A DNA stretch of 47,065 nucleotides. It comes from Prevotella sp. (GTDB lineage Bacteria > Bacteroidota > Bacteroidia > Bacteroidales > Bacteroidaceae). Every line of letters starts with the position of its first letter. The stretch's first letter is position 1. A model generated the notes under the pieces. That model made no database searches. It was given only the letters and a program-made list of their open reading frames with translations, and was not told the DNA's origin. Both the position numbers and the translations under genes were made by a program. Below, piece by piece: positions 1,434 to 46,968 of this stretch. The stretch spans positions 1 through 47,065 of the forward strand of contig JAFSNR010000028.1 in the NCBI GenBank assembly GCA_017443345.1, read 5' to 3'.

Positions 1434-1521
1434 CATTAAAGATTCTTGGCGGAGCCAAGCGGCAAAGCCGAGCGAAACATTAAATATTAAACATTGAACA
1501 TTAAACATTAAAAAGGACTGA
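1434..1521. repeat. Hairpin core plus heptad array between ispH and the VirE-like gene
   Basis: The gap holds two consecutive GC-rich hairpins: CTTGGC/GCCAAG at 1445-1459 and CGGC/GCCG at 1460-1470. Five 7-base units follow: CATTAAA, TATTAAA, CATTGAA, CATTAAA, CATTAAA (1478-1512), reaching almost to the next start codon. The hairpins lack a following T-run, so they are not a classical terminator. A related core may lie inside the M15 gene near 4483-4525. Confidence 0.7.
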
Positions 1522-4248
1522 ATGTTTACATACCAAGAAAATACTCATTTCTCTCAGGCACTTCCTTGCACAAAGGAAGTGTTCTGGGAGCAAGTAAAGA
1601 AGCCTAATACGGCTTGGCGCATTGATGCCCGCAGGGCTATTCTTGCGGCTGTGGATGCTTCGAAGACTCAGGGCGTGGCGGCTCTTCAGACTTGGCTTAA
1701 TAATGCTGACTATCAGAAATTTCTGCTGAAAAAGCGGAATCTGAAAAAGGAATCAGCCAAGAAAGCGTGGGCTACTAAATCTGACGCTGAAAAGTTGTTG
1801 GCTTTTGCTCAGGAGATCAAGGACAATTCAACGGCTTTTATATACAGTTGTAGAGAATTTGATGAGACTGAGACGAGCAAGGGGGCACCCTTCCGTCATA
1901 GAAGATTGGCAGATTGTCACCTGAACGGTCTTGTGATGCTCGACATTGATCATGTGGAGAATCCAATGGATATCTGGTACAAGCTACGTGACAATGAAGA
2001 ACTGATGAAGCGCGTGGCTCTTGTACACATAACCAGTAGCGGTTTTGGTGCAAGAATCGTCTTCACGGCTGATATCAAGGATGGTAACTTGGCAGATAAC
2101 CAAATCGTCTTTGCTGAGAAACTGGGCTATCAGCCTGATGAAAGCTGCATCGATGCGACAAGAAACTCTTTTTCTCCAAAGGAGGAGGATATCCTTTACA
2201 TTAACGAAGAACTATTATTTGATTACTATGACGAAGATTTCGACAAGAGATTCACTCCTGAGTACCGTGAGAAGAGGACTCAACCATTATACCATGAGTT
2301 TCCTTCTGTTTATAAAGGCACGGATGCGGAGAATAAATTAGGCACGGATGCAGAGAATAAATTGGGCACGGATTCCACGGATTTACACGGCTTTAAAAAA
2401 GAACCCGAGAATCCTGTTGCAGTTAATAAAAGCAGTGATAATCCGTGTAATCCGTGCCAAAAATTAAAGTGGAGAGGTTATGATATTCAAGGGATTATTG
2501 ATCAGCGTTATGCTGCTAAGCTGCCCTGTGCTGCAGACAGCAACCGTCACAACGAGAGTCTTAAACTCGCAACCGATTTGTTGCTTATGCTCGATGGAGA
2601 TAAGGCCTTGGTACAAAGGATCGTCGAGGCACAATCGTGGGTCAAGGAAATCATTGATGAGCGCGATGAGAATGTTGAACAGACCGTCGCTTCCGCAGCC
2701 GAATGTGTGGCGCAGAAGGAGAAGAAGTATGCCTCTTCGCAGCCGTCAAAGGTGATGCTTGAAGCCATCAAGGCTTTTACAGGAAAGACGTATCAGGAGA
2801 TTGTCAAAGGCGAAAGTGAGCAACAAGGGGCTAATGCACTTTATGGTCAACATAAGATTCAGCAGATGTTGCAAGGATGGGGCGAGGAGATTGAAGCTCT
2901 GTTCCCGGATTTTCCTCTGCTGAAGGATATCTGTGAAGGTCTGAAGAAGAGTCAGTATCCTGCTGCTTTGTTCGTGGGTGGTGGTACAGCCATGACTTTG
3001 ATGACGAGGACTTGGTACAGATTCTATCATCGTCCGCAGCAGGAGCGCAGACTGAATTGCTCGCTGTATATTATTGGCCATCCTGCTTCAAACAAGTCCA
3101 TGGCTGATGATATCTACAAGATTTTGTCAGCACCAATAGCTGCTGCAGATAAGGCAGGAAAGGCTGCTTTGAATCGTTATAAGCAGGACCTGAAGAAGAA
3201 GGCGGCGAATAAGGAGGGTAAAGATAAGCCGCAAGGCATCATCCGTATTCATCCAGCCCGTACTTCGAATGGTCAGTTGATTCAGGATATGCTGAATGCG
3301 AAAGAGACGATTGATGGTAAGGAGATCCAACTCCACATGCTGACTTTTGATACTGAGCTCGACAATGCTACGATGTTGCAGCAGGGTGGTTCATGGATCA
3401 ATAAACAAAGTATGGAGCTGAAAGCCTTTCATAATGAGGAAGATGGTCAGATGTATCAGAACTCTGATTCACCTGTCGATGAATTCAACGTCACATGGAA
3501 CTACATCTACACAGGTACGCCCATCGCCCTTAAAAGAAAGGTGAATGAACGGAACTTCGGGTCAGGACTCTCAACACGTCTGGCGGTGATTCCCATGCCC
3601 AAGACGAATTATGAGATGATAGAACTGGAGGATGTGAACAAGATTGACTGGGCGCGTCTGGATCGTATGAAGACATGGGCTTATAGATTGGATAGCCGCT
3701 ATGGTGAACTGCCATTATGGCCTCTGGTCGTAAAAATGCATGGTTGGGTCAAGAACCGCATGGAGGACTGCGCTGAAGATGACAGTGAGGCGAATGAACT
3801 CATGCTAAAGCGCGTGCCTTATCACGCCCTTAATTATGCGGCTCCCTTCATTGATATGCGCCATTGGGATAGTCTTCATCAGGAGAATAACCACTGGATA
3901 GGCGAGTATGAGGTGGACGAAACAGACTGGAAGCTCTGCGAGTTGATAGCCCGAATTCAGTATGCCACCCAGCAGCATTTCTTCGGGGTGATGGCTGAGA
4001 AGTATTTCGACGACATGAATAATGACGTGCAGATTGTTGGAAAGCGACACCAGCAACGTTCATTGGATGGGTATTACAAACTGCCTGATACATTCACAAG
4101 GGAGGATGTGTTGAAATGCTTTGGCTATGACAATGAGAACTCTGTTAACACCAAATTAAGAAGACTCTTGGAGGGACACCTGATAGAAAAAATATCAGAA
4201 GGGAAAAACAAGGGTTGTTATAAGAAGGTGAATAGGATGGTTATCTAA
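1522..4248 (+). CDS. VirE_N (BT4734-like) / DUF3987 primase-helicase-like protein
   Basis: A 908-residue protein of a type common in Bacteroidetes accessory regions. The N-terminal part (about 30-240) resembles the BT4734-like VirE_N domain; its LMLDIDHV (hDhD) and TSSGFGARIVF segments fit an archaeo-eukaryotic primase fold. The C-terminal half (about 440-800) resembles DUF3987/VirE helicase-like domains: a degenerate P-loop IGHPASNKS near 517-524 (Asn where Gly is usual), a Walker-B-like MLTFDTELD near 607-615, and an arginine segment GLSTRLAVIPMP near 683. A linker around 265-315 carries two copies of GTDAENKL and other repeat-derived residues. Family members are linked with replication of integrated elements or with phage remnants, but their role is not settled. 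The M15 gene lies 35 bases downstream. The motif assignments are my reading; a hidden Markov search would settle them. Confidence 0.75.
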   Translation: MFTYQENTHFSQALPCTKEVFWEQVKKPNTAWRIDARRAILAAVDASKTQGVAALQTWLNNADYQKFLLKKRNLKKESAKKAWATKSDAEKLLAFAQEIKDNSTAFIYSCREFDETETSKGAPFRHRRLADCHLNGLVMLDIDHVENPMDIWYKLRDNEELMKRVALVHITSSGFGARIVFTADIKDGNLADNQIVFAEKLGYQPDESCIDATRNSFSPKEEDILYINEELLFDYYDEDFDKRFTPEYREKRTQPLYHEFPSVYKGTDAENKLGTDAENKLGTDSTDLHGFKKEPENPVAVNKSSDNPCNPCQKLKWRGYDIQGIIDQRYAAKLPCAADSNRHNESLKLATDLLLMLDGDKALVQRIVEAQSWVKEIIDERDENVEQTVASAAECVAQKEKKYASSQPSKVMLEAIKAFTGKTYQEIVKGESEQQGANALYGQHKIQQMLQGWGEEIEALFPDFPLLKDICEGLKKSQYPAALFVGGGTAMTLMTRTWYRFYHRPQQERRLNCSLYIIGHPASNKSMADDIYKILSAPIAAADKAGKAALNRYKQDLKKKAANKEGKDKPQGIIRIHPARTSNGQLIQDMLNAKETIDGKEIQLHMLTFDTELDNATMLQQGGSWINKQSMELKAFHNEEDGQMYQNSDSPVDEFNVTWNYIYTGTPIALKRKVNERNFGSGLSTRLAVIPMPKTNYEMIELEDVNKIDWARLDRMKTWAYRLDSRYGELPLWPLVVKMHGWVKNRMEDCAEDDSEANELMLKRVPYHALNYAAPFIDMRHWDSLHQENNHWIGEYEVDETDWKLCELIARIQYATQQHFFGVMAEKYFDDMNNDVQIVGKRHQQRSLDGYYKLPDTFTREDVLKCFGYDNENSVNTKLRRLLEGHLIEKISEGKNKGCYKKVNRMVI
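2317..2458. repeat. In-frame direct and inverted repeats inside the VirE-like gene
   Basis: Two 24-base direct repeats (2317-2340 and 2341-2364) differ at two positions and encode GTDAENKL twice. A third partial copy begins at 2365 with GGCACGGATTCCACGGAT. The reverse complement of 2441-2458 (ATCCGTGTAATCCGTGCC) matches 2365-2382 at 17 of 18 bases, so the segment also has inverted arms about 58 bases apart. The frame stays open throughout, placing the insert in the linker between the two domains. Confidence 0.8.
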
Positions 4249-4280
4249 ATGTTCAAATATTCAAATGTTCAAAATGTTTT
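4249..4280. repeat. Octamer array between the VirE-like and M15 genes
   Basis: Units ATGTTCAA, ATATTCAA, ATGTTCAA and a decayed AATGTTTT run directly from the stop codon of the VirE-like gene to three bases before the M15 start codon. This is one of several such stop-to-start spacers in the window. Confidence 0.7.
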
Positions 4281-4283
4281 TTT

Positions 4284-4841
4284 ATGAATGAAGTAATTGT
4301 AAATAGTAAGATGAAACTCTCTGAGCATTTCAATTTAGGGGAGTTGACAAAGACCAAGCATCAGACTGCGGATGGGAACATTCCGAGTCATGTGGTGATT
4401 GAGAATTTGAAGCGTATCTGCGAGAATTGGTTAGAAGATCTTCGTTACAGCTATAACACATTATATGTGTGGAATGTGGAAGGTGGCGCTCGGCCGAAGG
4501 ACGCTTGCTACCATCGGGACGCAAGAATGAGGAATGAGAATACTCATGAGGCAGAGGAGGACGAGCCGATTATTATCAACAGCGGTTATCGTTCACCTAC
4601 TGTGAATAAGTTGGCTGGAGGCTCGAATACTTCCAATCATCTGACGGGGTGCGCAGTGGATATCCGCTGCGCGGGTAAAGAGCAGATGATCCGCTATGCA
4701 TCGATATTGTTAGATATCGCTGATGGAACGAAACAGGATTATGATGAATTGCTATTAGAGCAGCATGGCTCAGTCTGTTGGCTCCATTTCGCAGTGAGAC
4801 CTAAGGACAACAGGAGACGTATAGAGTTCCTGAAAGTTTAG
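4284..4841 (+). CDS. M15-family (D-Ala-D-Ala carboxypeptidase-like) peptidase
   Basis: A 185-residue protein matching the Peptidase_M15_3 pattern: an N-terminal LSEHFNLGELTKT segment, INSGYRSPTVNKLAGG, then the metal-site segments SNHLTGCAVDIRC (His and Asp ligands) and WLHFAV (C-terminal His). Such enzymes cut peptidoglycan cross-links or stems and often act as phage or element endolysins; no signal peptide is seen. Residues about 62-90 (after LYVW and before EPIIINSGYRSP) look inserted, because the DNA there is a heptad and hairpin repeat rather than conserved sequence. ATG 4284 is the first start; an internal ATG at MKLSEHF (4311) is also plausible. The stop overlaps that of addB on the opposite strand. 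Confidence 0.8.
   Translation: MNEVIVNSKMKLSEHFNLGELTKTKHQTADGNIPSHVVIENLKRICENWLEDLRYSYNTLYVWNVEGGARPKDACYHRDARMRNENTHEAEEDEPIIINSGYRSPTVNKLAGGSNTSNHLTGCAVDIRCAGKEQMIRYASILLDIADGTKQDYDELLLEQHGSVCWLHFAVRPKDNRRRIEFLKV
4469..4538. repeat. In-frame heptad-core-heptad insertion in the M15 gene
   Basis: GTGGAAT and GTGGAAG (4469-4482) precede a GC-rich core with CTTGC/GCAAG arms (4504-4508 and 4521-4525), then GAATGAG twice (4525-4538). The core shares GCTCGGC, CGCTTG and CAAGAAT blocks, in the same order, with the reverse complement of the ispH-virE hairpin element. GTGGAAT is also the unit of the array in addA. Confidence 0.55.
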
Positions 4842-7528
4842 CGGCGGCCGCAGATGGGGGCGAAGGGGCAGGCGTGACAGCGATCGAGGTCGTCGGTGGG
4901 CGACAGGGCGAGGTCTTCGTTGAAGATCTCGCTTATTGTTTGGTTGAGCAGCTGCATGTATTCGTCGGCGACGGTGGCGATGTCGCGCACGGGTTCGCGT
5001 CCGAGGCAGAGGGTGGGGTCGTAGCCGTCGGTGCCGGCATGCTGGATGAAGAGCAGGGCGGGAGAGACTTCTTTAGATTTTAAAGATTTATCTTTAACGA
5101 TGATGCTGTAGAGGAAGGCCTGGAGATAGTAGTCGCTGTGGTCGGGGATGTTGGCAGGATCGAAGATGGCGGCGACATCGGGGAGGGTTTTCAGACGGCG
5201 GGAGCCGGTCTTGTAGTCGACGACGCGGATGTGCTGGTCGCCTGTCTGGGAGTCGGTGATGCTGTCGAGACGGTCGATGATACCGCCGATTCTTAGTTTA
5301 GACAGATCCATGCTGACGTATTGCTCGAGGCCGAGGATGGTGAAGGGTGTCAGGCGACGGTCGATCTCGACGAGCTGGCGCACGTACTTGATGATGACCT
5401 CACGGTTGATGAGCTGCAGACCGTCGAGGGGCGGCATGGGGCGCGTGGGGTCGTCGAAATGGAAGAACTCGGTCTTGATGGCATCGTCGACGGCCCGCTC
5501 GATGTCGACCACGTCCTTGAGCAGCTTGTCGAGGTCGAAGGCGGTTATCTCCTGACGTCCAAAACGCTGGTAGAGGTTTTGGGCGGCCTTGTGGAAGATG
5601 TTGCCGAAGAGGCGGTTGTCGATGAGCTCTTCATCGTTGTCGACTGCATCTTCAAGGTTGCAGACGTAGCGGTAGAAGAAGCGCAACTGGCAGCGGAGGT
5701 AGTTGCTGATGGCGGTGGGGCTGATGCCGCCTGAGAGGCGCTCGCGGAGGTGCTGCATGACCTCTGGGGTCTTGGTGATGGCGTTGGGTGTGCGCAGCAG
5801 GGTCTTCTGGCCGGATTTCAGGGTTTTGAAGTTTACGGGTGACAGTTTACAGTTTACAGGTGACAGTTTACAGTTTACAGGTGACTGTTTACAGTTTACG
5901 GAGGAACGGTCGACCATGAGCTGGAGCATGAAGCGTGACATCTCGCCTGTCTGTCCGTCGTTGGTGGAGTTGTTGTAGACGATGGTGACATCCTTGGCGC
6001 GCTGGAGCAGTCGGTGAAAGTAGTGCTGGTAGATGGCTACCTTCTGGTCGACGGTGGTGAGTCCGTAAGCCTTGCGGATGGCATAGGGGATGAACGAGGT
6101 GTCGTTGACGCCTCGCGGCATATTGCCTTCGTTACAGGAGAGCAGCAGCACGTGGTCGAAGTCGAGGTTACGTGTCTCGAGCACTCCCATCACCTGGATG
6201 CCCTCGGCGGGCTCACCGTGGAAGGGGATGGTGGTGGACTGTACGAGCTGGGCGACGAGGCGCTGGAGGGTGATCGTGTCGACGGTGAGGACACCGCTGT
6301 CGACGAGGTCGCTGACACGGTTGAGTAGGGTGTACATACGGAAGCAGCTTTCTGCATCGAGCGCGCCACTGGCGCGCTCGTCTGCAGAAGCGATGGTGCG
6401 GATGATGACTAGGAGCCAGCGGAGGAGGGGACCGTTATCGGTATAGCGGTGGTCGGCGTAGTCGTCGGGCAGGAAGGGGGCATAGGGATGGCGGCGCACG
6501 GTGTCGAGCCAGTGGCGGCGGAAGCTGTTGGTCTTGGGCGACCAGCCGTTGACCTGCAGGTTGATGAGCTGGCTGACGAGCGAGGCGATGGAGGTCTGGA
6601 GCAGGGGGTAGCCTGTTGTGACATTGACCTTCTCGACGGTATCGGGGAGGCAGTGGACAGCGGCCTGTAGGAGCCCTTCGTCACAGAGCACGATGGCCGT
6701 TCGGCGCCCGTCGGCGATGCGCTCAGGGGTGAGCCAGTCGCTGATGTAGCGGGCCTGTATGTTCTCCGTAGGGGCTGATATAAAGGTGAGGTCGCGTGGC
6801 GGCTCTTCGTCGGTATCCTGATAGAAGATGGCCCTGCCTGCCTCGTCGAGGCGACGGAAGAGTGCCTGTTCTACCTGATGGAGGTGGTTGAAGCCGATGA
6901 AGGCGTAGGTGTCGTATTCGAACTGTATGTCGGGGTCGCTGACCACCTGGCGGTAGAGGGCTCCCTCGTAGGCGAGCTGTCGGCTGGCGAGCTGGTCGTT
7001 GTAGTGGCGGTAGATGTCGCCGATGTGGCTCCACAGGCGCAGGAATCGCTCCTTGAGTTCGCTGTTATGGTCGTCGGTGAAGTTGCTGAAGAAGCGTCGT
7101 ATCATCTCGCGCTGCTCGTCGGTGAGGTAGGACACATCGTCGAGTTCGTGGATGTCGCGGAGGTTGGCGAAGATCTTATCGGCTGGCCCCATGTTCTTGT
7201 CGAGGTCGTCGAAGTCGGAGAGCAGCAGCTGTCCCCAGCCGTAGAAGTGGTCGAGGGTCTCGTCGATGCCTGTGCAGTGGGTGAAGCTCTTATAGAGTTC
7301 GCAGACGAGGAGTATGGGGTCGGCGACCTTCAGCTGTGAGTGGCTGCGGAAGAGGTCGCTGATGGTGATATAGGCTGGGCTCCAGATGGGGCGTCCAGCG
7401 AGGCGCGCGAGGTGGTCGTTGAGGAAGAGCGAGGCGCGCTTATTGGGGAAGACAACGGCTACCCGGGAGAGGTTGGTTCCATATCGTGAGAGCAGATCTT
7501 CTGCGACGTATTCGAGGAAACTTTTCAT
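4838..7528 (-). CDS. addB: AddB-like helicase/exonuclease subunit with Fe-S nuclease domain
   Basis: An 896-residue protein paired with AddA for double-strand break end resection. The N-terminal part resembles a degenerate UvrD-type helicase without an intact P-loop (VVFPNKRASLFL near residue 25), as expected for AddB. The C-terminal nuclease domain shows GGIIDRLD (about 746) and VVDYKTG (about 770), the PD-(D/E)XK residues. The four cysteines of the AddB iron-sulfur cluster can be assigned: one at YLRCQLRFF (about 612) and three in CHACPFAPICGRR at the very end. A 7-residue repeat (SPVNCKL type) lies between the two domains, encoded by a 21-base repeat. The start codon directly follows a heptad array after addA. 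The gene ends tail-to-tail with the M15 gene, overlapping by 4 bases, so no terminator separates them. Confidence 0.88.
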   Translation of the reverse strand: MKSFLEYVAEDLLSRYGTNLSRVAVVFPNKRASLFLNDHLARLAGRPIWSPAYITISDLFRSHSQLKVADPILLVCELYKSFTHCTGIDETLDHFYGWGQLLLSDFDDLDKNMGPADKIFANLRDIHELDDVSYLTDEQREMIRRFFSNFTDDHNSELKERFLRLWSHIGDIYRHYNDQLASRQLAYEGALYRQVVSDPDIQFEYDTYAFIGFNHLHQVEQALFRRLDEAGRAIFYQDTDEEPPRDLTFISAPTENIQARYISDWLTPERIADGRRTAIVLCDEGLLQAAVHCLPDTVEKVNVTTGYPLLQTSIASLVSQLINLQVNGWSPKTNSFRRHWLDTVRRHPYAPFLPDDYADHRYTDNGPLLRWLLVIIRTIASADERASGALDAESCFRMYTLLNRVSDLVDSGVLTVDTITLQRLVAQLVQSTTIPFHGEPAEGIQVMGVLETRNLDFDHVLLLSCNEGNMPRGVNDTSFIPYAIRKAYGLTTVDQKVAIYQHYFHRLLQRAKDVTIVYNNSTNDGQTGEMSRFMLQLMVDRSSVNCKQSPVNCKLSPVNCKLSPVNFKTLKSGQKTLLRTPNAITKTPEVMQHLRERLSGGISPTAISNYLRCQLRFFYRYVCNLEDAVDNDEELIDNRLFGNIFHKAAQNLYQRFGRQEITAFDLDKLLKDVVDIERAVDDAIKTEFFHFDDPTRPMPPLDGLQLINREVIIKYVRQLVEIDRRLTPFTILGLEQYVSMDLSKLRIGGIIDRLDSITDSQTGDQHIRVVDYKTGSRRLKTLPDVAAIFDPANIPDHSDYYLQAFLYSIIVKDKSLKSKEVSPALLFIQHAGTDGYDPTLCLGREPVRDIATVADEYMQLLNQTISEIFNEDLALSPTDDLDRCHACPFAPICGRR
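5831..5900. repeat. Ten-unit heptad array (three 21-base repeats) in frame within addB
   Basis: On the plus strand the units are GTTTACG, GGTGACA, GTTTACA, GTTTACA, GGTGACA, GTTTACA, GTTTACA, GGTGACT, GTTTACA, GTTTACG, without interruption. They form three 21-base copies (5838-5858, 5859-5879, 5880-5900), which keep the reading frame and give a 7-residue repeat in AddB. Gain or loss of a single 7-base unit would shift the frame. Confidence 0.92.
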
Positions 7529-7534
7529 CTTTGA

Positions 7535-7569
7535 GTTTAAAGTTTATAGTTTAAAGTTTATTGTTTGAT
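7535..7569. repeat. Heptad array at the addA-addB junction
   Basis: Units GTTTAAA, GTTTATA, GTTTAAA, GTTTATT, GTTTGAT (plus-strand reading) cover the last codons of addA and the gap up to the addB start codon at 7528. Confidence 0.8.
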
Positions 7570-10500
7570 CTCTTCGATGCGGTTGGAATAGACGTACCAA
7601 AGGTAGCCGGTGATGTGGTGGTGACCCATCGAGGCGAGGAGCTGCATGTACTCGCGCACCTGGTCGTGATACTCGGGCTTGGGGGAACCAAACTTGAAGT
7701 CGACCACAATCCATTCCTGACCATCAGTCATCACGCGGTCAGGGCGACGCTCCTTCACCTGACCATCCTCAACGGAGAGAATGGTGCATTCGTTGAAGAG
7801 TGTCCAACGTTTTGAGAACCAATCTCGTACACGTGGATGTTCAAGTCGTTTCTTGAGCATACTGGTAATGCGCTCAGCTGAGATCTGTTCGTCGTAGAGC
7901 ACGCCCTCGAACTGGAGTCGCTGGAGGGCATCGGGGATATCATCGACGGTGCGGATGGTGGAGAATATCTCGTGGAGGATGCTACCTGTCTGGATGTACT
8001 GGTGGCGCTGACGGCTATCCTCGTCGTCGCCTTCAACGAACTGTTGGCTGCGGTTGCTCTGGCGGAAATCGACTTTGTTGCTGAAGGTTCGCACAGACAC
8101 GGACAGGGGTTCGGAGGGCTGGAGGAAGGGGTTGGTGGTTGTGGAATGTGGAATGTGGAATGTGGAATGTGGAAGGGTGCCGTAGGTGAAAGTGAGGATG
8201 GTGTCCTCGGATTCCTGGCCTTCGAGGGTAGCGCCTTCGAGTTTGTCGACGATGAGGGGGAGGCACTGCTCGATGAGGGCAGCGCGCGAGTTCTTGGCTC
8301 CTCGACGGCCGATGACGTGGAGGCTCTTGCGGGCACGGGTGAAGGCGACATAGAGCAGGTTGAGGTTGTCGACCGTGTTCTGCAGGTGTTCGTGCAGGTA
8401 GTCGGCTTCGTAGATGGTGCCCGTCATCTGTTTCTGACTGTAGTCGATGGGGGCGATGGGCAGGTCGCTGAAGGGTTGCTCTGTGGGGGTGCACCAGAGG
8501 ATGTTGCCGATCTGCTTCTCGAGCTGCCAGTCGCAGAAGGGGCAGACGACGTGGTCGTACTCGAGTCCCTTCGACTTATGGATGCTGAAAATGCGCACAC
8601 CCTCAGTCTCGTCGCTCTGGATGGTCTTGGCGCAGAGGGTCTCGTCCCACTCGACGAGGAAGGCGCTGATATCCGTAGCGTTCTCGCTGACGTAGTCGGA
8701 CAGACGGTCGTAGAAGGCGCTGACGTAGGCACTCTGGTCCTGTAGGCGCTCCAGCTCGAAGATGGCATAGAGGCGCTCCACGAGGTCGTAGAGTGGGAGA
8801 GTGAGCAGTTCGCTGAAGTGGGCGGTATAGTCTTCGGGCAGCTGGCTGTCGAGCTCGACAGGTGACATCAGCAGTTCGTTGTTGTCGTCGTGCTTACCCA
8901 ATACGTCGCACTGGTAGCTCTTGACGAGGGCTGCCTTCGTGAGCATGTCGTCGGGATGGATGAGGAGCCTCAGGGCGCCTACGAGGAGGCAGACGGCATC
9001 GGAGGCATCGAGGCGGAAGGCTTCGTCGGAGACGATGGTCACCTCAGGCATCTGCTGCATGAAGTAGTTGGCAATCTGGGGGATGACGCCGTTGGTACGC
9101 ACGAGGATGGCGATCTTCTGTTGGGGGATTCCCTGGGCGATGAGGTCGCCGATGGTCTGGGCGAGAAGCTGGTAGGTCTGTGCCTGATAATCGTCGGCAG
9201 GCAACAGGCGGATGTCTACATAGCCGCTGTCCTCACGATGATCGGGAATGAGCTGCTCGACGTCGGCATAGGCGCGCTGGAGCTGTTCGGCCTCCATGCT
9301 GTTGAGTTCCTTCTGAGCCGCGTATTCGAGCTGGGCGGCATGGCGGAAGAACACGTTGTTGAAGGTGATGATGCGACGGTCGGAGCGGTAGTTGGTCTTC
9401 AGGGGCAGCGTCTCGATCTGTCCTTGTCGGAATTGGTGCTCGATATCGTTGAGCAGCCGCCAGTCGCCTGAGCGCCAGCGGTAGATGCTTTGCTTCACGT
9501 CGCCCACGATAAGGTTGGATGTGTTCTCGTGACTCATGGCCTCGGCGAGAAGCACGCGGAAGTTCTGCCACTGGACGGTGGAGGTGTCCTGGAACTCGTC
9601 GATCATGATGTGCTCGAGCTGGGTGCCGATCTTCTCGAAGATGAAGGGTGAGTCGCTCTCGCCGATGAGGGAGTGGAGCAGCTGCTGGGTGTCGCTCAGC
9701 AGGAAGCGGTTGGCGTTGGCATTGAGCTCGTGCACCTTCTGTTCGATGCTGCTGAGCAGGCGTAGCTGGTTGAGGTGGCGCAGGGTGAGGTCGGCACTCT
9801 TATAGAGTTTCCACTGACGTGGACGCTCCTCGACGGCATAGCGGAGGATGTCGCTCAGCGTGGTTTCTGTGAGTGAGACGATGAGTTCGCGACGGGGATG
9901 GGTCTTGGCGCACCATTTCTCAGGATTTTCCAGACAGTTGGCTACGGTGGCATTCTCGATGCCAGGGTCGAAGACGCCTTTCTGCAGCTTGAGGAAGAAG
10001 CCTGCGATGCCTCTGTTCTTGTTGGCGAGGTCGTCGATGGTGAGCCCCTCGCCGTCGAGGGTGTCGAAGAAGCTCTCTGCAATCTCCTTCATATGTTCGA
10101 GAGCCATCTGACGGAGTTCGCGCAGACGGCGGGTGTAGTCGTCGAAGAAGCCTTCTTCCTGCATCTTCTGTTCGAGGTCTCGGCTGACGGCCTTGTAGTC
10201 ATCGCGGAAGATGGTGTGGCCAAAGTTCTTGATCTGGTAGATGATGTTCCAGGCCTTGTCCTCGGAGATGTTCTCCATGATGTACTTCAGGATCCACTGG
10301 AGCATGATGTCGGTGGTGCTGAGGTCGGCGATGAGCTGGTCGACAGCCAGTTCCTCGACCTGGTAGTCGTTGAGTCCGATGCGGAGGTTGGTGGTGAGGT
10401 CGAGCTCACGGGCCATGTTGCGCAGCACACTCTGGAAGAAGGTGTCGATGGTCTCGACGCGGAAATAGTTGTAGTTGTGGAGGAGGTTAGCCAGTGCGAT

Positions 10501-10776
10501 GCCTGCGCGCTCACTGATGAGGCGTGGCTCGAAGCCCGTCTTCCTGCGGATGGCCTCGAGGTAGTCGTCGGAGTCGGGCAGCTGTTTCCAGATGCCATAG
10601 AGTTGACTGAGGATACGCATCTTCATCTCCTCGGTGGCCTTGTTGGTGAAGGTGACGGCGAGGATGCTGCGATAGCTGAGTGGGTTTTCCACGAGCAGGC
10701 GAATATACTCGGTTGCGAGTGTGAAGGTCTTGCCGCTGCCTGCGCTGGCTTTGTAGACTGTCAGGGGTTTTACCAT
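7558..10776 (-). CDS. addA: AddA-like UvrD/REP helicase-nuclease
   Basis: A 1072-residue superfamily 1 helicase with a C-terminal nuclease. Motifs in order: Walker A ASAGSGKT (10-17), NKATEEMKMRI, Walker B IDEFQDTS (about 392), GDVKQSIYRWRSGD (about 425-437), TNYRSDRRI, SIHKSKGLEYDHV, and NLLYVAFTRARKSL. The nuclease shows GSILHEIF (about 930) and RPDRVM followed by VVDFKFG (about 1010-1025). With AddB it should unwind and degrade broken DNA ends for RecA loading. A heptad array encodes an LPHSTFHIPHSTTTN linker just before the nuclease domain. The start overlaps the stop of the upstream barrel gene in ATGGTAA, suggesting translational coupling. Confidence 0.9.
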   Translation of the reverse strand: MVKPLTVYKASAGSGKTFTLATEYIRLLVENPLSYRSILAVTFTNKATEEMKMRILSQLYGIWKQLPDSDDYLEAIRRKTGFEPRLISERAGIALANLLHNYNYFRVETIDTFFQSVLRNMARELDLTTNLRIGLNDYQVEELAVDQLIADLSTTDIMLQWILKYIMENISEDKAWNIIYQIKNFGHTIFRDDYKAVSRDLEQKMQEEGFFDDYTRRLRELRQMALEHMKEIAESFFDTLDGEGLTIDDLANKNRGIAGFFLKLQKGVFDPGIENATVANCLENPEKWCAKTHPRRELIVSLTETTLSDILRYAVEERPRQWKLYKSADLTLRHLNQLRLLSSIEQKVHELNANANRFLLSDTQQLLHSLIGESDSPFIFEKIGTQLEHIMIDEFQDTSTVQWQNFRVLLAEAMSHENTSNLIVGDVKQSIYRWRSGDWRLLNDIEHQFRQGQIETLPLKTNYRSDRRIITFNNVFFRHAAQLEYAAQKELNSMEAEQLQRAYADVEQLIPDHREDSGYVDIRLLPADDYQAQTYQLLAQTIGDLIAQGIPQQKIAILVRTNGVIPQIANYFMQQMPEVTIVSDEAFRLDASDAVCLLVGALRLLIHPDDMLTKAALVKSYQCDVLGKHDDNNELLMSPVELDSQLPEDYTAHFSELLTLPLYDLVERLYAIFELERLQDQSAYVSAFYDRLSDYVSENATDISAFLVEWDETLCAKTIQSDETEGVRIFSIHKSKGLEYDHVVCPFCDWQLEKQIGNILWCTPTEQPFSDLPIAPIDYSQKQMTGTIYEADYLHEHLQNTVDNLNLLYVAFTRARKSLHVIGRRGAKNSRAALIEQCLPLIVDKLEGATLEGQESEDTILTFTYGTLPHSTFHIPHSTTTNPFLQPSEPLSVSVRTFSNKVDFRQSNRSQQFVEGDDEDSRQRHQYIQTGSILHEIFSTIRTVDDIPDALQRLQFEGVLYDEQISAERITSMLKKRLEHPRVRDWFSKRWTLFNECTILSVEDGQVKERRPDRVMTDGQEWIVVDFKFGSPKPEYHDQVREYMQLLASMGHHHITGYLWYVYSNRIEEIKQ
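8141..8175. repeat. Five-unit GTGGAAT heptad array in frame within addA
   Basis: GTGGAAT occurs four times in a row and GTGGAAG once (8141-8175). It encodes a His/Ser/Thr/Pro-rich linker between the helicase and nuclease parts of AddA. The near-perfect units make slippage plausible, and 7 bases is not a multiple of 3. Confidence 0.92.
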
Positions 10777-28220: not shown

Positions 28221-28246
28221 ATGTTACATGTTACACGTTACAAACT
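28218..28246. repeat. Inverted second copy of the GTAAC(A/G)T heptad element
   Basis: ATGTTAC, ATGTTAC, ACGTTAC (28221-28241) read on the minus strand as GTAACGT, GTAACAT, GTAACAT directly after the lipoprotein stop. It matches 26353-26373 in reverse orientation. Confidence 0.85.
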
Positions 28247-29872: not shown

Positions 29873-29899
29873 TTTATAGTTTAAAGTTTATAGTTTATA
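29872..29899. repeat. Four-unit heptad array between map and tsaD
   Basis: GTTTATA, GTTTAAA, GTTTATA, GTTTATA, from the last base of the map stop to one base before the tsaD start. The final units plus start (GTTTATAGATGATTACT) are identical to those at the batD start. Confidence 0.92.
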
Positions 29900-29900
29900 G

Positions 29901-31489: not shown

Positions 31490-31526
31490 AAAATATTAAT
31501 TCTTCATTTTTCAGTTGGTGCAATGA

Positions 31527-31556
31527 TTTGAATCTCAATTAAAATGTGTACCTTTG
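31527..31556 (+). promoter_or_regulatory. Promoter of the rpmB operon
   Basis: TTTG (31527-31530), 18 bases, TACCTTTG (31549-31556); rpmB starts about 52 bases downstream. Confidence 0.82.
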
Positions 31557-31608
31557 CACCCTGTTTGGAATAAGTAAGTGTAAATCACAAGTAAAAAAGT
31601 AGATAGAA

Positions 31609-37283: not shown

Positions 37284-37285
37284 TC

Positions 37286-37313
37286 GTTTACAGTTTACGG
37301 TTTACAGTTTACA
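37286..37313. repeat. Four-unit heptad array between moxR and the DUF58 gene
   Basis: GTTTACA, GTTTACG, GTTTACA, GTTTACA, then GG and the ATG at 37316. Confidence 0.92.
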
Positions 37314-37315
37314 GG

Positions 37316-38185: not shown

Positions 38186-39255
38186 TGAAGAGATTTGTGT
38201 TTCTTATTGCGTTGATTACTAGTGTGCTGCAAATATCTGCACAAGTACAGGTAGAGGCTTCCATTGACTCTATCCAGATCTTTGTGGGTGAGCAGGTACA
38301 CGTCACGCTGTCAGCTACGGCGAAGGAGCAGTCTAAGGTCGAGTTCCCGCAGTTCAAGCCTACTGAGTATATCACCCCCGGCATTGAGGTGCTGGGTGCT
38401 GAGGAGCTCGAGTCGAAGCAGCAGGACAACGGCTTTGTGACTCGACGGATGGTCTATACGATGACCTCCTTCGACGATACGCTCTATTATATTCCCCCGA
38501 TGAAGGTAAAGATCGACGGGAAGCCCTACGAGAGCAAGAGTCTTGCCCTGAAAGTGCTTAGCATCGAGGTCGATACGACGAATGTCGATCAGTTCTTCGG
38601 TCCCAAGGACGTACAGGATAATCCCTTCCAGTGGAGCGACTGGAGTCTGTCGTTCTGGCTCAGCGTGCTCTTCCTGCTATTGCTGGCTGTGGTCTACTAC
38701 CTCTATCTGCGTCTGCGCGACAACAAGCCCATCATCACTCATATCCGTATCGTGAAGCGGCTGTTGCCCCATCAGAAGGCCCTGCAGCAGATTGAGCAGA
38801 TCAAGGCTGACAAGATGGTTTCATCGGAGAACTCGAAGGAGTACTACACGAAGTTGACGGATACCCTCCGCAAGTATATCGAGGAGCGTTATGGCTTCAG
38901 TGCGATGGAGATGACCAGTAGTGAGATTATCGACCATCTGATGGCTACCCAGGACGAGAGTGCCCTCAGTGAGCTGCGCCATCTGTTCCTGACTGCCGAC
39001 CTGGTGAAGTTTGCCAAGTACTCCACGCTGATCAATGAGAACGATGCGAACCTCGTGAACGCCATCGACTTCATCAATCAGACGAAACTCGAGAACGAAC
39101 CTCAGGAGGAGACGGTGAAACCCCAGCTCACGGAGGAGGACCAGCGTTCACAGAAAGCCCGTCGCGTGCTGAAATCGGTGATTGCCGCCATCTCTGTGGT
39201 GTGCCTAGCCTTGTTCTGCTACGTGCTCTATACACTCTATCTGTTACTGAATTAA
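38185..39255 (+). CDS. BatD-like membrane protein of the bat operon
   Basis: A 356-residue protein with a signal peptide (FVFLIALITSVLQISAQ), a beta-rich periplasmic domain (about 22-150), a membrane helix (about 158-180), a cytoplasmic helical part with KEYYTKLTDTLRKYIEERYGF (a segment shared with BatD and DUF4381-type proteins), and a last membrane helix near the C-terminus. It takes the place between DUF58 and batA seen in other Bacteroidetes. Function unknown; probably part of the envelope complex. Confidence 0.78.
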   Translation: MKRFVFLIALITSVLQISAQVQVEASIDSIQIFVGEQVHVTLSATAKEQSKVEFPQFKPTEYITPGIEVLGAEELESKQQDNGFVTRRMVYTMTSFDDTLYYIPPMKVKIDGKPYESKSLALKVLSIEVDTTNVDQFFGPKDVQDNPFQWSDWSLSFWLSVLFLLLLAVVYYLYLRLRDNKPIITHIRIVKRLLPHQKALQQIEQIKADKMVSSENSKEYYTKLTDTLRKYIEERYGFSAMEMTSSEIIDHLMATQDESALSELRHLFLTADLVKFAKYSTLINENDANLVNAIDFINQTKLENEPQEETVKPQLTEEDQRSQKARRVLKSVIAAISVVCLALFCYVLYTLYLLLN

Positions 39256-39287
39256 AGGTAAAAAGATAAAAAAGTAAAAAGGTAAGA
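39256..39287. repeat. Four-unit octamer array before batA
   Basis: AGGTAAAA, AGATAAAA, AAGTAAAA, AGGTAAGA fill exactly the gap between the stop codon (ends 39255) and the batA ATG (39288). Confidence 0.88.
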
Positions 39288-40319: not shown

Positions 40320-42059
40320 ATGTTCAGATTCGAAGACCCCATATATCTCTGGCTGCTGGTGCTGATTCCCATATTGGCACTCATTCGTTTCATCTCCTAC
40401 AGGAATCAGAAGAAACGGCTGCGTAAGTTTGGTGAACCCGATTTGCTCAAGGCACTTATGCCCGATGTGTCGCGCTTCCGTCCTTCCGTGAAGTTCTGGA
40501 TCCTCGAGGGCGCCCTGGCGCTGCTCGTGCTGATGCTGGCCCGTCCGCAGATGGGAACGAAGATCAGCCAGGAGAAGCGTGTCGGCATCGAGACCATCAT
40601 CTGTATGGACATCAGTAACTCCATGCGGGCAGAGGATATCGTGCCGAGTCGTCTCGATCGCAGTAAGATGATGATTGAGAACCTCGTCGACCACTTTACG
40701 AACGATAAGATCGGACTCATCGTCTTTGCAGGTGATGCCTTCGTCCAGCTGCCTATCACCAGCGACTATGTATCGGCTAAGATGTTCCTCTCGAGCATCG
40801 ATCCCTCGATGATGGCAACGCAGGGTACCGATATCGGACGCGCCATCGATATGGCTATGCATAGCTTTACCCCTGAGGAGGGCATCGGACGCGCCATCAT
40901 TGTCATTACCGACGGTGAGAACCACGAGGGTGGGGCAGTAGAGGCTGCTGAGGCAGCGAAGGATGCCGGTATGCGGGTCTATGTGTTGGGTGTCGGTTCC
41001 TCAAAGGGCGCACCGATCCCCATCCCTGGCACAGGCGACTATATGAAGGACAACACGGGCAATACCGTCATGTCGGCCCTCAACGAGCAGATGTGTAAGG
41101 AACTGGCACAGGCCGGTGGTGGTGCCTATATCCATGTGGAGAACAACTCTGCGGCACAGGAGCAGCTCGACAACGAGCTCGACAAACTCTCAAAGAAAGA
41201 GACTACAACGACGCTTTACAGCGAGTTTGACGAACAGTTCCAGGCCTTCGGACTTCTGGCTATTCTGCTCCTCATTGTCGAGATCTGTATCCTCGACCGC
41301 CGCAACCCGCTGTTGAAGAATATCTCCCTGTTTAAACGTCGTGCCAAAGTGAGCAGTAACGTGATGATGAAGGTGTTGCTGATACTTTTCACCTTTCATC
41401 TTTCTCCTCTCACCTCTTATGCCCAGATGACGGACCGTCAGTATATTCGTCAGGGGAATAAGCAGTTCCGCTCAGGCGATTATGCCAATGCCGAGGTGTC
41501 TTACCGCAAGGCTATCGAGAAGAACGCCAAGAACCCGCAGGCTGCCTTCAACCTGGGCAACGCCCTGATGGCACAGAAAAAGGACTCTGCCGCTGTCGAG
41601 CAGTTCGAGGGTGCAGCCCGTCTTGAAACCAATCCTCTGCGCAAGGCACAGGCCTATCATAACATGGGAGTCATCTGTCAGACCCATAAGATGTACGGAG
41701 AGGCTATCGAGGCCTATAAGAACGCTCTGAGACTGAATCCGAAGGACGACGAGACCCGTTACAACCTCGTGCTCTGCAAGCATCAGAAGCAGAAACAGGA
41801 TCAGCAGCAACAGAACCAGCAGGGGGGCGGTGACGACGACAAGAAACAGGACGACAAACAGAAGGATCAGCAGCAGCCTGACCAGCAGAAAGACAAGCAG
41901 GACGACAAGCAGCAGAAGGAACAGCCCAAGCCCCAGATGAGCAAGGACAATGCCGAACAGCTGCTGAACGCTGCCATCCAGAACGAGAAGCAGACGCAGG
42001 AGAAGCTGAAGCAACAGCAGCAACAGCCCCAGCGACGCAATATTCAGAAAAACTGGTAA
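40320..42059 (+). CDS. batB: BatB-BatC fusion: vWA domain joined to TPR protein
   Basis: A 579-residue protein. Residues 1-340 are BatB: two N-terminal membrane helices, vWA domain with CMDISNSMRAED (MIDAS), VITDGENHEG, and a closing helix. Residues 349-370 (MMKVLLILFTFHL and following, ending SYAQ) form a complete signal-peptide-like segment. After it come TPR repeats (about 373-490) and a Gln/Lys/Asp-rich tail, together typical of BatC. The frame is unbroken, so the two usual genes are fused and the old signal peptide now sits inside. Translation from ATG 41364 or 41367 could still make free BatC. Confidence 0.88.
   Translation: MFRFEDPIYLWLLVLIPILALIRFISYRNQKKRLRKFGEPDLLKALMPDVSRFRPSVKFWILEGALALLVLMLARPQMGTKISQEKRVGIETIICMDISNSMRAEDIVPSRLDRSKMMIENLVDHFTNDKIGLIVFAGDAFVQLPITSDYVSAKMFLSSIDPSMMATQGTDIGRAIDMAMHSFTPEEGIGRAIIVITDGENHEGGAVEAAEAAKDAGMRVYVLGVGSSKGAPIPIPGTGDYMKDNTGNTVMSALNEQMCKELAQAGGGAYIHVENNSAAQEQLDNELDKLSKKETTTTLYSEFDEQFQAFGLLAILLLIVEICILDRRNPLLKNISLFKRRAKVSSNVMMKVLLILFTFHLSPLTSYAQMTDRQYIRQGNKQFRSGDYANAEVSYRKAIEKNAKNPQAAFNLGNALMAQKKDSAAVEQFEGAARLETNPLRKAQAYHNMGVICQTHKMYGEAIEAYKNALRLNPKDDETRYNLVLCKHQKQKQDQQQQNQQGGGDDDKKQDDKQKDQQQPDQQKDKQDDKQQKEQPKPQMSKDNAEQLLNAAIQNEKQTQEKLKQQQQQPQRRNIQKNW
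41385..41419. repeat. Heptad array forming the internal BatC signal peptide
   Basis: CTTTTCA, CCTTTCA, TCTTTCT, CCTCTCA, CCTCTTA encode the hydrophobic FTFHLSPLTS part of the internal signal peptide. Confidence 0.8.
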
Positions 42060-42070
42060 TGAGTTTTAAA

Positions 42071-42098
42071 GTTTAGAGTTTAAAGTTTATAGTTTATA
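42071..42098. repeat. Four-unit heptad array before the batD-batE gene
   Basis: GTTTAGA, GTTTAAA, GTTTATA, GTTTATA, then G and ATG 42100. The last two units and the first bases of the gene match the tsaD start. Confidence 0.92.
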
Positions 42099-42099
42099 G

Positions 42100-44703
42100 A
42101 TGATTACTATACATGAATTGCAAAGTCGGAAGTGGATGGTGAAAGTACTGCTGATACTTTTCACTTTTCACCTTTCACTTATCACTTCTTTAGCTCAGAC
42201 TCTGACCGGTTCTGCACCATCGCATGTGGCGGTGGGTGAGCAGTTCCGTCTGTCGTATACGGTCAATACACAGGACGTCAGTGATTTCCGAGCTGGCGAC
42301 ATCCCTGAGGAACTCGACGTGCTCATAGGGCCTAACCGCTCCATGCAGTCGAGCTATCAGATGATCAATGGCCACACGAGCTCCACCTCGTCCATCACCT
42401 ATACCTATATCGTCTGTGCCACGAAGAACGGCACGTTTACCATCTCACCGGCCCACGTGGTGGTGAATGGCAAAAGCATCGCCTCCAATTCACTGACGAT
42501 CAAGGTATCGGGAACGGCACAGAGCGGCAGCAGTCGCCAGCGTCAGAATGACGATGAGGGAGGGGAGATGCGCGATGCAGGCAGCCATATCTCGGGTTCC
42601 GACCTCTTCATCAAGGTCAGCGCCAACAAGAAACGCGTCCACGAACAGGAGCCTATCCTGCTCACCTATAAGGTCTACACCCTCGTATCGCTTACCCAGC
42701 TACGAGGCGACATGCCCGACCTGAAGAGCTTCTACACTCAGGAGGTCGACCTGCCCCAGCAGAAGAGTTTCTCGGTAGAGACCGTCAACGGACGACCTTA
42801 CCGCACGTGTACATGGAGTCAGTATGTCATGTTCCCGCAGATGACGGGTAAGCTCCAGATTCCCAGTATCACCTTCGAGGGTATCGTCGTACAGCAGAAC
42901 CGCAACATCGACCCCTTCGAGGCCTTCTTCAACGGTGGCTCAGGCTATATAGAGGTCAAGAAGAAGATCGTGGCTCCAGGCATCGAGATCCAGGTCGATC
43001 CGTTGCCAGAACGTCCGGCCAACTTCTCGGGTGGAGTGGGGCAGTTCAATATCTCTGCCCAGCTCGACAAGACGGCTACGAAGGCCAACGACCCTGTGTC
43101 GCTGCGGATTATCGTCAGTGGTGTGGGTAACCTCAAGCTGATCAAGCAGCCTGTCATCAACATCCCGAAGGATTTCGACCAGTATGATCCGAAGATTACC
43201 GACCAGACGAAGCTGACCAACAACGGGCTCGAGGGTTCGAAGATCTACGACTTCCTCATTGTGCCCCGTCATCAGGGCAAGTACGAGATACCGCCAGTGG
43301 AGTTCACCTACTTCGACACCAGCTCAGGTAGCTACAAGACTGCCCGTAGCGAGGGCTTTACCCTCGACGTGGCTAAGGGCTCAGGGGCTGGTGCAGTCAA
43401 CGACTTCACTGATCAGGCAGGACTGAAGGAACTCAACAAGGATATCCGCTACATCAAGACAGGCGATGTCCGCACACAGGGCATCGACAACTTCTTCTAC
43501 GGTTCTGTGGCCTACTGGGTAACCCTCATTGTCCTCGCCCTCATCTTCATCTCGCTCTTCATCGTCTTCCGTCAGCGGGCCATCGACAATGCCAACGTGA
43601 CGAAGATGCGCGGCAAGAAAGCCAACAAGGTGGCTACGAAGCGACTGAAGAAGGCAGCTAAGCTGATGGCTGATAACAAGCCTGGCGAGTTCTACGACGA
43701 GGTGCTGCGTGCCCTCTGGGGTTACGTCGGCGACAAGCTGAACATCCCCGTCGAGCAGCTCTCCCACGATAATATCAGTCAGCGACTTGCCGAGCGTCAG
43801 GTTGATACTGAGACTGTCAGCCAGTTTATCGAGGCTCTCGACGAGTGCGAGTTCGAACGCTATGCCCCGGGCGATCCTAAGGGTAATATGAATAAGGTAT
43901 ACGAAAAAGCCATGACAGCTATCGAGAAGATTGAAGAGACGATGAAGAAACGTCGTTCGGCAAAGACGGTGACTGCCGTCCTGCTAATGCTCCTGCTGCC
44001 GCTGGGTGCACAGGCCGTGACGAAGGCTGAGGCCGACTCTGCCTATGCACAGGGCCACTATCAGCAGGCCATCAACGACTATCAAGCCCTCCTGAAGCAG
44101 GGTGCCTCTGCCGACCTCTATTATAACCTCGGCAACGCCTACTACCGTTCCGAGAACATCACGCAGGCTGTGCTCAACTACGAGCGGGCCCTGTTGCTCT
44201 CGCCAGGCGATCGCGACATCCGCTTCAACCTCCAGCTGGCCCGCAGCAAGACGATCGATAAGATTGTGCCCGAGTCAGAGATGTTCTTCATCACCTGGTA
44301 CCACGCCCTCGTCAATCTCATGAGTGTCGACGGCTGGGCGCGCACCGCCATCTTCTCCTTGGCACTGGTCATTGTGCTCTCGCTGGTCTACCTCTTCTCT
44401 CAGCCCGTGTGGCTGCGAAAGATAGGCTTCTTTGGTGGCATCACGCTGCTCGTGGTCTTCGTGCTGGCCAATGTCTTCGCCTCTCAGCAGAAGCAGTCGC
44501 TCATCCACCGCAAGGGGGCTATCGTCATGTCGCCCTCCGTCACGGTGAAGAGCACACCCGCAGCCAACGGCACCGACCTCTTCATCCTCCACGAGGGTAC
44601 GAAGGTCACCATCACTGACGGTTCGATGCGTGACTGGAAGGAGATCCGTCTGGCCGATGGCAAGGAGGGCTGGATTGAAAGTAAGAAGATTGAACTGATA
44701 TAA
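42100..44703 (+). CDS. batD: BatD-BatE fusion protein
   Basis: An 867-residue protein. A signal peptide (VKVLLILFTFHLS and on to SLAQ) precedes a BatD-type part with several beta-domains (about 35-440), a membrane helix (about 468-488) and a cytoplasmic helical segment (GEFYDEVLRALWGYVGDKL). A second signal-like segment (TVTAVLLMLLLPLGAQA, about 625-643) then opens a BatE-type part: TPR repeats (ADSAYAQGHYQQAINDYQALL, YYNLGNAYYRSENITQAVLNY), two membrane helices, and a C-terminal SH3-like domain (TVKSTPAANGTDLFILHEGTK). The frame is continuous, so two usual genes are joined. ATG 42100 gives a 12-residue leader before the signal; ATG 42136 is also possible. Confidence 0.87.
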   Translation: MITIHELQSRKWMVKVLLILFTFHLSLITSLAQTLTGSAPSHVAVGEQFRLSYTVNTQDVSDFRAGDIPEELDVLIGPNRSMQSSYQMINGHTSSTSSITYTYIVCATKNGTFTISPAHVVVNGKSIASNSLTIKVSGTAQSGSSRQRQNDDEGGEMRDAGSHISGSDLFIKVSANKKRVHEQEPILLTYKVYTLVSLTQLRGDMPDLKSFYTQEVDLPQQKSFSVETVNGRPYRTCTWSQYVMFPQMTGKLQIPSITFEGIVVQQNRNIDPFEAFFNGGSGYIEVKKKIVAPGIEIQVDPLPERPANFSGGVGQFNISAQLDKTATKANDPVSLRIIVSGVGNLKLIKQPVINIPKDFDQYDPKITDQTKLTNNGLEGSKIYDFLIVPRHQGKYEIPPVEFTYFDTSSGSYKTARSEGFTLDVAKGSGAGAVNDFTDQAGLKELNKDIRYIKTGDVRTQGIDNFFYGSVAYWVTLIVLALIFISLFIVFRQRAIDNANVTKMRGKKANKVATKRLKKAAKLMADNKPGEFYDEVLRALWGYVGDKLNIPVEQLSHDNISQRLAERQVDTETVSQFIEALDECEFERYAPGDPKGNMNKVYEKAMTAIEKIEETMKKRRSAKTVTAVLLMLLLPLGAQAVTKAEADSAYAQGHYQQAINDYQALLKQGASADLYYNLGNAYYRSENITQAVLNYERALLLSPGDRDIRFNLQLARSKTIDKIVPESEMFFITWYHALVNLMSVDGWARTAIFSLALVIVLSLVYLFSQPVWLRKIGFFGGITLLVVFVLANVFASQQKQSLIHRKGAIVMSPSVTVKSTPAANGTDLFILHEGTKVTITDGSMRDWKEIRLADGKEGWIESKKIELI
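42157..42191. repeat. Heptad array forming the BatD signal peptide
   Basis: CTTTTCA, CTTTTCA, CCTTTCA, CTTATCA, CTTCTTT encode FTFHLSLITS. The surrounding DNA and peptide resemble the BatC signal at 41364-41425. Confidence 0.8.
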
Positions 44704-46906: not shown

Positions 46907-46910
46907 AGTT

Positions 46911-46920
46911 CACCTCCTTT
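46911..46920 (-). promoter_or_regulatory. Strong Shine-Dalgarno site of the smalltalk-like gene
   Basis: AAAGGAGGTG on the minus strand, with GGAGG six bases before the ATG. No other gene in the window that I inspected shows a comparable site. Confidence 0.9.
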
Positions 46921-46936
46921 TCTTAATTCAGAATTC

Positions 46937-46968
46937 TTCAATTTTTCAATTCTTCAATTCTTCATTTA
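46937..46968. repeat. Octamer array downstream of the right-end gene
   Basis: TTCAATTT, TTCAATTC, TTCAATTC, TTCATTTA; the array ends exactly at the stop codon of the minus-strand gene at 46966. Confidence 0.82.

Follow-up and report, generated by a model that had tools for sequence, protein, structure and literature searches.

Tandem heptad and octad arrays at Prevotella gene junctions: probable solo arms of S23-associated elements resembling rRNA intervening sequences

A 47,065-nucleotide (nt) contig of Prevotella sp. (GenBank assembly GCA_017443345.1, contig JAFSNR010000028.1), referred to here as the window, carries tandem arrays of 7- and 8-base units in the gaps between its genes. In our judgement these arrays are probably solo arms of small dispersed elements of S23 type (PF05635, the 23S rRNA intervening-sequence protein), which resemble the intervening sequences (IVSs) of 23S rRNA and lie at gene ends, mostly at stop–start junctions. 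The complete form consists of a forward array of 7- to 12-mers just after the upstream stop codon, a short inner motif, an S23 gene for a four-helix-bundle protein and, ahead of the next gene, motif and array in inverse orientation. In a second form the inverted arms enclose a short core of a few tens to about 110 nt, and a third, to which most arrays of the window would belong, would be one arm alone, descended from a full element. In RNA, the arms of the complete and the short-core forms would pair into a long stem, like the ends of 23S rRNA IVSs, which might allow RNase III to excise the element from the operon mRNA; a solo arm would add an A/U-rich, mostly unstructured linker, and the inner motif could supply the next start codon, as AGATGATTAC appears to do before tsaD. 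Each species would carry a few lineages of such presumably mobile elements, which would explain its vocabulary of units.

Open reading frames (ORFs) and gaps of the window and of the sampled loci were called with our own simple hexamer gene finder. The nine window arrays named in the initial annotation were all recovered with Tandem Repeats Finder. The sample of this genome comprised the window and 20 further loci (L001–L020), together 442 kb with 258 gene gaps and 38.5 kb of gap DNA. The excess over composition-matched gaps that the initial annotation had expected was large: 33 arrays of period 7, 8 of period 8 and 6 of period 9 were obtained at a score of at least 14, versus 0.25, 0 and 0 in dinucleotide shuffles, and at the same score periods 3–6 gave none and periods 10–13 one. 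At a score of at least 13, an array was present in 51 of the 258 gaps and in 14 of the 55 same-strand gaps of 20–59 nt. The corresponding numbers for periods 7, 8 and 9 in 80 loci of related species (1092 gaps) were 61, 16 and 7, versus 0.8, 0 and 0.2 after shuffling. It is thus confirmed that the window arrays are real and far above chance.

S23 genes are found between inverted arms of this kind. PF05635 was matched in 27 of 35 genomes at an E value of 0.001, in 23 of these over the cut-off. This genome holds two full-length S23 genes and one partial match (the genome-wide search placed none in the window), and both full-length genes are enclosed by arms (Table 1). Strict TTAGNGG arrays, of which the 442-kb sample contains six, fall in five cases in a 20-kb stretch with the S23 gene of contig C146, two of the five being its own arms. 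Inverted arms were scored by local alignment of the 155 nt upstream of a gene with the reverse complement of the 160 nt downstream. The first 26 S23 loci gave a median score of 19.5, and 21 of them lay above 12.5, the 99th percentile for 1777 ordinary genes; they were taken from 33 first-round loci after removal of L148 (internal stops), L150–L153 and L159 (below the Pfam cut-off, L159 passing that of TIGR02436) and L157 (same gene as L135). Addition of 20 more above-cut-off S23 places of the genus, a part of those present there, gave 46 chromosomal loci. Inverted arms scoring above all 200 shuffles were found at 37 of the 46 (33 of 38 within the genus), and 34 of the 37 have a tandem arm, mostly of period 7 or 8, on at least one side. 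Among plasmid S23 genes (16 of 29 records), 14 have inverted arms, nearly all of heptads. The plasmid hosts belong to Bacteroidota, Cyanobacteriota, Spirochaetota, Bacillota and Chloroflexota (Nostoc, Dolichospermum, Treponema, Monoglobus, Bernardetia, Chlorohelix and others); in two Nostoc plasmid stretches (96 kb) the two S23 genes scored 36 and 34.5, and the other 66 genes 10.5 or less. Inverted pairs of arrays recur among the loci examined. The flanks of the S23 genes are mostly long open frames, with junctions that include leuC–leuD, hcp–hcp and pta–ackA, and no rRNA was matched at the Rfam gathering score within about 0.35–1.5 kb on each side of the 46 chromosomal and 16 plasmid loci. 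In the leuC–S23–leuD RNA, a stem formed by the two arms encloses the ORF (fold z −4.87). As a separate observation, plasmid S23 genes at L253, L259, L260 and L266 lie within or beside defence genes (HsdS–HsdR, cas2–cas1, helicase–methylase, with a bacteriophage exclusion (BREX) system nearby).

The S23 clade predicts the unit length of the arms, though the unit sequences differ. A tree was built from the 46 chromosomal S23 proteins, the plasmid proteins being left out, and periods were binned as 7, 8 and 9–12. Arm period, clear in 39 of the 46 rows, changed 7 times on this tree versus a shuffled mean of 16.3; with same-site duplicates removed (33 rows), 6 changes were counted versus 13.3, and in both cases none of 200 shuffles was as low. 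S23 proteins that are 80% alike at different sites share their period (12 for L154 and L131, 7 for L241 and L245). Unit sequences vary within one S23 clade, as in the octads AAAGGTGA, AGAAAATG, AGGTGAGA, AATTGAAG and AATTAAAG; the same junctions recur across species, and pta–ackA is occupied by S23 of different clades. Because S23 clade goes with unit length, the making or spreading of the arms probably involves S23, possibly together with a partner enzyme. To our knowledge, S23 proteins and IVSs have no known function. One conceivable, if rather doubtful, idea is that dispersed heptamer satellites owe their existence to S23-family proteins as the missing factor. Together with a partner enzyme, these would write or copy arrays at gene ends by a clade-specific ruler (7, 8 or 9–12 nt), and in this way IVS-like elements, derivatives without S23 and solo arms would come to be distributed over operon junctions of several phyla. 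A resemblance of PF05635 to Avd of diversity-generating retroelements is stated in PMC10053308; the comparison made here covered the Avd-like S23 protein.

Species differ in a few unit families, each of which is used at many loci, and the units are not private microsatellites. Three AGTTTAN units in tandem gave 118 matches in this genome (reversed control 0) and, among other genomes, were found in 10 of the 35 from the genus and in 1 of 24 from other families of the order. Each of the other unit families was counted in 35 genomes, including 21 from the genus: ATTRAAN is favoured by G008 (167 matches, control 5), AGTGAAN by G001 (65 matches, the reversed control not being neutral since AAGTGAR overlaps AGTGAAN), RGTAAAAA by G019 (64 matches, control 0) and CTAGN5 by G009 (189 matches, control 3). 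The remaining controls were 0 or low, with up to 13 for the ATTRAAN type in one genome (G015). None of the five families was found in G002, G003 and G016 of the genus. The initial annotation had described units as differing between loci, with period and placement shared; the latter part holds, and the units are not locus-private, since AGTTTAN alone forms 60 arrays in the sampled places of this genome. CTAG every 9 bases with five variable bases between, a fixed core with a free spacer and in this unlike plain slippage, occurs in this genome, G007, G009, G010 and G017 at 52–189 matches per genome (reversed control 0, or 3 in G009); in G010 (C3, 1.599–1.630 Mb), CTAG and GAGAGTT arrays are crowded within about 30 kb.

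Orthologous junctions in sister species can hold a different unit, a different copy number or no array. At leuC–leuD, readable in 12 of 21 loci, the 465-nt S23 element is present in this genome, 0 nt separate the genes in G013, G014 and G007, and G015 has a solo heptad array. The junction between methionyl aminopeptidase and tsaD, tabulated for 78 of the 80 related loci, holds many different units in relatives, or a direct stop–start overlap. L036 and L037 (92.9% identical) differ at one junction by an array in one and TGATGG in the other, and L058 (85.5% identical to the window) is missing the array at 29872; in both comparisons whole arrays are there or missing with clean edges. L058 further has an AAGTGAR-type array in place of AGTTTAC/GGTTTAC at the position of window 37286 (a family switch), about three units instead of six at 23718, and a nearly unchanged octad array at 39254–39285. 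The rpmB promoter spacer keeps a total length of about 118 nt in many species with a variable unit, and between L060 and L072 its flanks are near-identical and the arrays different. In the rpmB leader (orthologues of window 31490–31608), the array abuts a TAnnTTTG box, which we take to be the −7 box, at near-constant total length, and the unit varies by species.

These comparisons bear on an account by slippage, in which a polymerase favouring 7–9-nt loops would make arrays in any tolerated spacer, and S23 elements and hairpins would grow or adopt arms likewise. A heptamer excess has been reported for many bacteria, with a polymerase footprint proposed (PMC4692102, accessible part). Multiples-of-three periods dominate in coding DNA of the related loci, as tolerance predicts (period 7: 16 arrays in 1.16 Mb of coding DNA versus 61 in 0.17 Mb of gaps), both the unit and its copy number change rapidly, and the leuC arm is similar to the end of that gene. 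Slippage at each gap alone, however, would be expected to give unrelated units, so that one unit family at tens to hundreds of loci, with different families in sister species, speaks against it; arrays also come and go as blocks, and inverted pairing specific to S23 and a clade-linked period are left unexplained. We therefore hold slippage unlikely as the explanation of the arrays. The length change by slippage suggested in the initial annotation agrees with the copy-number difference between species at 23718, and not with the shared unit families and the presence or absence of whole blocks.

Short pairs that lack S23 share parts with an S23 element. In G001, such pairs (L116/L117) and the S23 element L249 have in common an (AGTGAAG)n arm and the inner motif AATTTAAGTTAC; terminal inverted repeats common to a larger coding element, a trait of miniature inverted-repeat transposable elements, were thus seen in G001, not with AGTTTAN. 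Paired AGTTTAN elements of this genome and of G018 have a common core of about 40 nt, and three short pairs fold strongly (z −5.5 to −8.5). The motif ATGATTAC directly follows 9 of 60 AGTTTAN arrays, versus 0.09% of ATGs overall and, among the 277 ATG starts called in the sample, two (that of tsaD included); two of the nine arrays are solo arrays of the window, upstream of tsaD and of 42100. A single element behind all AGTTTAN arrays of this genome was considered and rejected: the core GATTACCTGGCAAGCC occurs at six places with up to two mismatches, only three of them between AGTTTAN arms, and a fourth core pair between such arms, in L020, has three mismatches. A tail-motif search returned many chance matches and was not used.

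In the initial annotation the arrays had been read as selected translation leaders or spacers, A/U-rich, unstructured, independent of Shine–Dalgarno pairing and tuned in length by slippage. The stop-to-start placement and the copy-number difference at 23718 agree with this reading, as do composition and folding: solo arrays are A/T-rich, and five of those in the window show no stronger folding than shuffled sequence (z −0.51 to 0.79). Stop-adjacent arrays also have more G than C on the gene strand in 73 of the 92 with unequal counts (73 to 19). The same sense skew, less strong, is found in short gaps without arrays (131 of 199; 131 to 68), which is compatible with an unstructured leader and weakens the skew of the arrays as proof of leader function. 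G-rich arrays outnumber C-rich ones 27 to 5 where only a stop is near, versus 6 to 9 where only a start is near (p=0.005). Arrays occur, moreover, inside genes, in the promoter spacer of rpmB and, in 22 of 165 cases, between divergent genes, and leaders predict neither inverted pairs around S23 in five phyla nor a period that follows S23 clade; shared units and block turnover likewise do not fit. As the main account, selected leaders are quite improbable, and a secondary leader function of the arrays is possible. Stop-bearing units of period 7 or 8 might alternatively serve as tandem stop cassettes that place stops in all three frames behind a gene. In stop-adjacent arrays, 2.6 of the 3 frames do contain a stop (2.5 for arrays that start after the stop), but unit-shuffled arrays give 2.3, so that composition explains most of the effect, and stop-free AGTTTAC arrays exist (window 37286); we regard this explanation as very improbable.

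Several observations weigh against solo arms of S23-type elements. Most window arrays have no inverted partner, and long-stem inverted repeats are not a property of its solo arrays. ATGATTAC stands at only two of the five AGTTTAN arrays of the window, and the 60 AGTTTAN arrays are not independent, as places were partly chosen for holding arrays and both arms of pairs were counted. None of the S23 genes found has AGTTTAN arms, the two full-length ones of this genome using other units, and G010 and G018 have arrays and no S23 match. Of the 46 chromosomal S23 loci, 9 have no significant inverted arms (five within the genus and four outside it), nor do 2 of the 16 plasmid loci; at L245, one of the arm-negative loci, strong heptad arrays flank the gene on either side but run in the same sense instead of being inverted. 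The tree test addresses the clustering of period and nothing beyond it. Evidence for a TTAC inner motif general to S23 arms was borderline (10 of 58 versus 4.4 shuffled, the maximum of 500 shuffles being 10) and was not retained. No target-site duplication was called, the pairs of empty and filled junctions being too diverged for it, and no transposition event was seen in the between-species junction comparisons. The leuC gene end forms part of the arm match, which suggests that arm sequence can follow the host gene end and that local slippage also shapes arms. Slippage clearly shapes the arrays too.

Heterocystous cyanobacteria carry short tandemly repeated repetitive (STRR) sequences of heptanucleotides, which are degenerate, intergenic and genome-wide. 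We know of no S23 link of these cyanobacterial repeats. The traits of STRRs and of heptamer simple sequence repeats, degenerate head-to-tail heptads dispersed between genes, are found here as well, and Nostoc plasmid S23 genes have such arms. Repetitive extragenic palindromic (REP) elements and their associated tyrosine transposases (RAYTs) involve palindromic units, whereas the units here are mostly non-palindromic, CTAG cores apart. A close likeness is to the 23S IVS of Coxiella, in which strain-variable tandem heptamers lie upstream of the S23 ORF; it is 428 nt long, has a 28-bp end stem and is cut by RNase III (PMC4990558). It shares with the present elements the S23 ORF between stem-forming terminal inverted repeats, the heptamers and a similar size (465 nt at leuC–leuD). 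Stem-capable inverted ends were found at 37 of 46 chromosomal and 14 of 16 plasmid S23 loci; in contrast to 23S rRNA IVSs, the elements here lie between protein genes and not inside a 23S rRNA gene, no rRNA having been found in the flanks examined, both arms are tandem arrays, and S23-less pairs and solo arms are abundant. The heptamers GGGAATC of Xanthomonas and GGGGATT of Nostoc have variable positions, occur mostly as four units close to the preceding ORF and vary between species in length and sequence; two Xanthomonas genomes hold 70 and 75 convergent pairs of GGGAATC, respectively (PMC4692102). These resemble the present arrays in their variable positions, convergent pairs and nearness to the preceding ORF; they were studied there as G-quadruplexes, whereas the present units are rich in A/T and each genome has many kinds of them. 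Calothrix repeats are mentioned in the same paper, and a search of its accessible text returned no mention of S23. TAACTGA repeats of Beggiatoaceae, cyanobacteria and five Bacteroidetes are intergenic, lie just upstream of start codons mostly in one orientation, and are missing in a close relative (PMC4679880). The intergenic heptads just ahead of start codons are the point in common; there, one unit extends across phyla and translational regulation was proposed, whereas units here are lineage-specific. No tandem TAACTGATAACTGA was found in 267 loci, and no such array is in the list for the window.

Heptamer arrays (PMC4679880, PMC4692102), the convergent pairs and stop proximity in Xanthomonas, IVSs with S23 and the Coxiella heptamers beside S23 are thus already known. 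Except for the latter, no paper joining S23 with repeat arrays was found in the literature searched, which did not extend to subscription papers; the general connection of S23 with arrays, the junction elements and the rule linking clade and period therefore seem new. For the heptamer repeats of cyanobacteria, Xanthomonas, Beggiatoaceae and Bacteroidetes no agreed origin is given in the accessible parts of the cited papers. The present results tie such repeats to S23 and IVSs by a testable rule, namely that S23 clade goes with arm unit length. Through such elements, operon junctions and even start codons can be rewritten, and the coupling of neighbouring genes may change as a result.

Table 1. 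Arrays and inner motifs of the window, and S23 elements elsewhere in this genome.
Feature	Position	Strand	Context
Heptad array ATTAAAC/ATTGAAC	1475–1512	+	9 nt upstream of ATG 1522
Octad array AATGTTCA	4247–4278	+	From stop of 1522–4248 to 5 nt short of ATG 4284; gap nearly filled
AGTTTAN heptad array	7534–7566	+	Flanked by minus-strand genes 4838–7528 and 7558–10776; overlaps stop of 7558–10776
AGTTTAN array, period 7, six units	23712–23757	+	Downstream of stop of 23215–23718, upstream of nadC (23764); ATGAT comes next
ATGTTAC ×3	28221–28242	+	Gap between convergent genes, directly 3′ of a stem-like stretch; missed by the initial annotation
AGTTTAN array, period 7, probable solo arm	29870–29900	+	Takes in TAG stop of methionyl aminopeptidase; four units up to tsaD ATG
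Inner motif AGATGATTAC	29899–29908	+	Contains tsaD start codon; common to paired AGTTTAN elements
AGTTTAC/GGTTTAC array, period 7	37286–37314	+	2 nt past TAA, 1 nt ahead of ATG 37316
Octad array RGTAAAAA	39254–39285	+	Fills 32-nt gap (39256–39287) ahead of ATG 39288
AGTTTAN array, period 7, probable solo arm	42065–42099	+	Directly upstream of ATG 42100 (Tandem Repeats Finder span 42065–42096)
Inner motif AGATGATTAC	42098–42107	+	Start codon of 42100–44703, provided that start is used
Octad array AATTCTTC, period 8	46932–46964	+	Near window end; 239 nt beyond last called gene, so flanks cannot be judged
S23 element leuC–S23–leuD	465 nt		PF05635 1.8e-24, TIGR02436 9.8e-28
Second S23 gene	C146:15936–16247		Between TTAGNGG arms

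The arrays had been described as filling gaps from stop to start. This is true of six, which fill or nearly fill their gaps, including the one at 39256–39287 with the exact fit that had been claimed (32 nt=4×8). The gap 29873–29900 is likewise 28 nt (4×7) long and ends at the tsaD ATG. The array at 42065–42099 fills most of the gap 42060–42099 if ATG 42100 is used, the gene finder having preferred a start at 42232. The description does not suit 7534–7566, which has a sense opposite to both flanking genes, or 1475–1512, which occupies only part of an 88-nt gap (1434–1521) and is the sole place in this genome with three exact ATTRAAN units. Further arrays were found inside coding sequence at 5830–5899, 8140–8174, 41387–41415 and 42156–42187 (the last if the gene starts at 42100). 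Those at 5830–5899 and 8140–8174 are heptad arrays within long minus-strand genes, the former being now a frame-keeping 21-base repeat. TTCACTT-type arrays, the inverse of AAGTGAR, lie in stop-free frames at 41387–41415 and 42156–42187 of the window and at 17422–17452 of L012. As read by eye, they encode the hydrophobic stretch of signal-peptide-like sequences (LFTFHLS...), and inverted arms may be a source of signal peptides.

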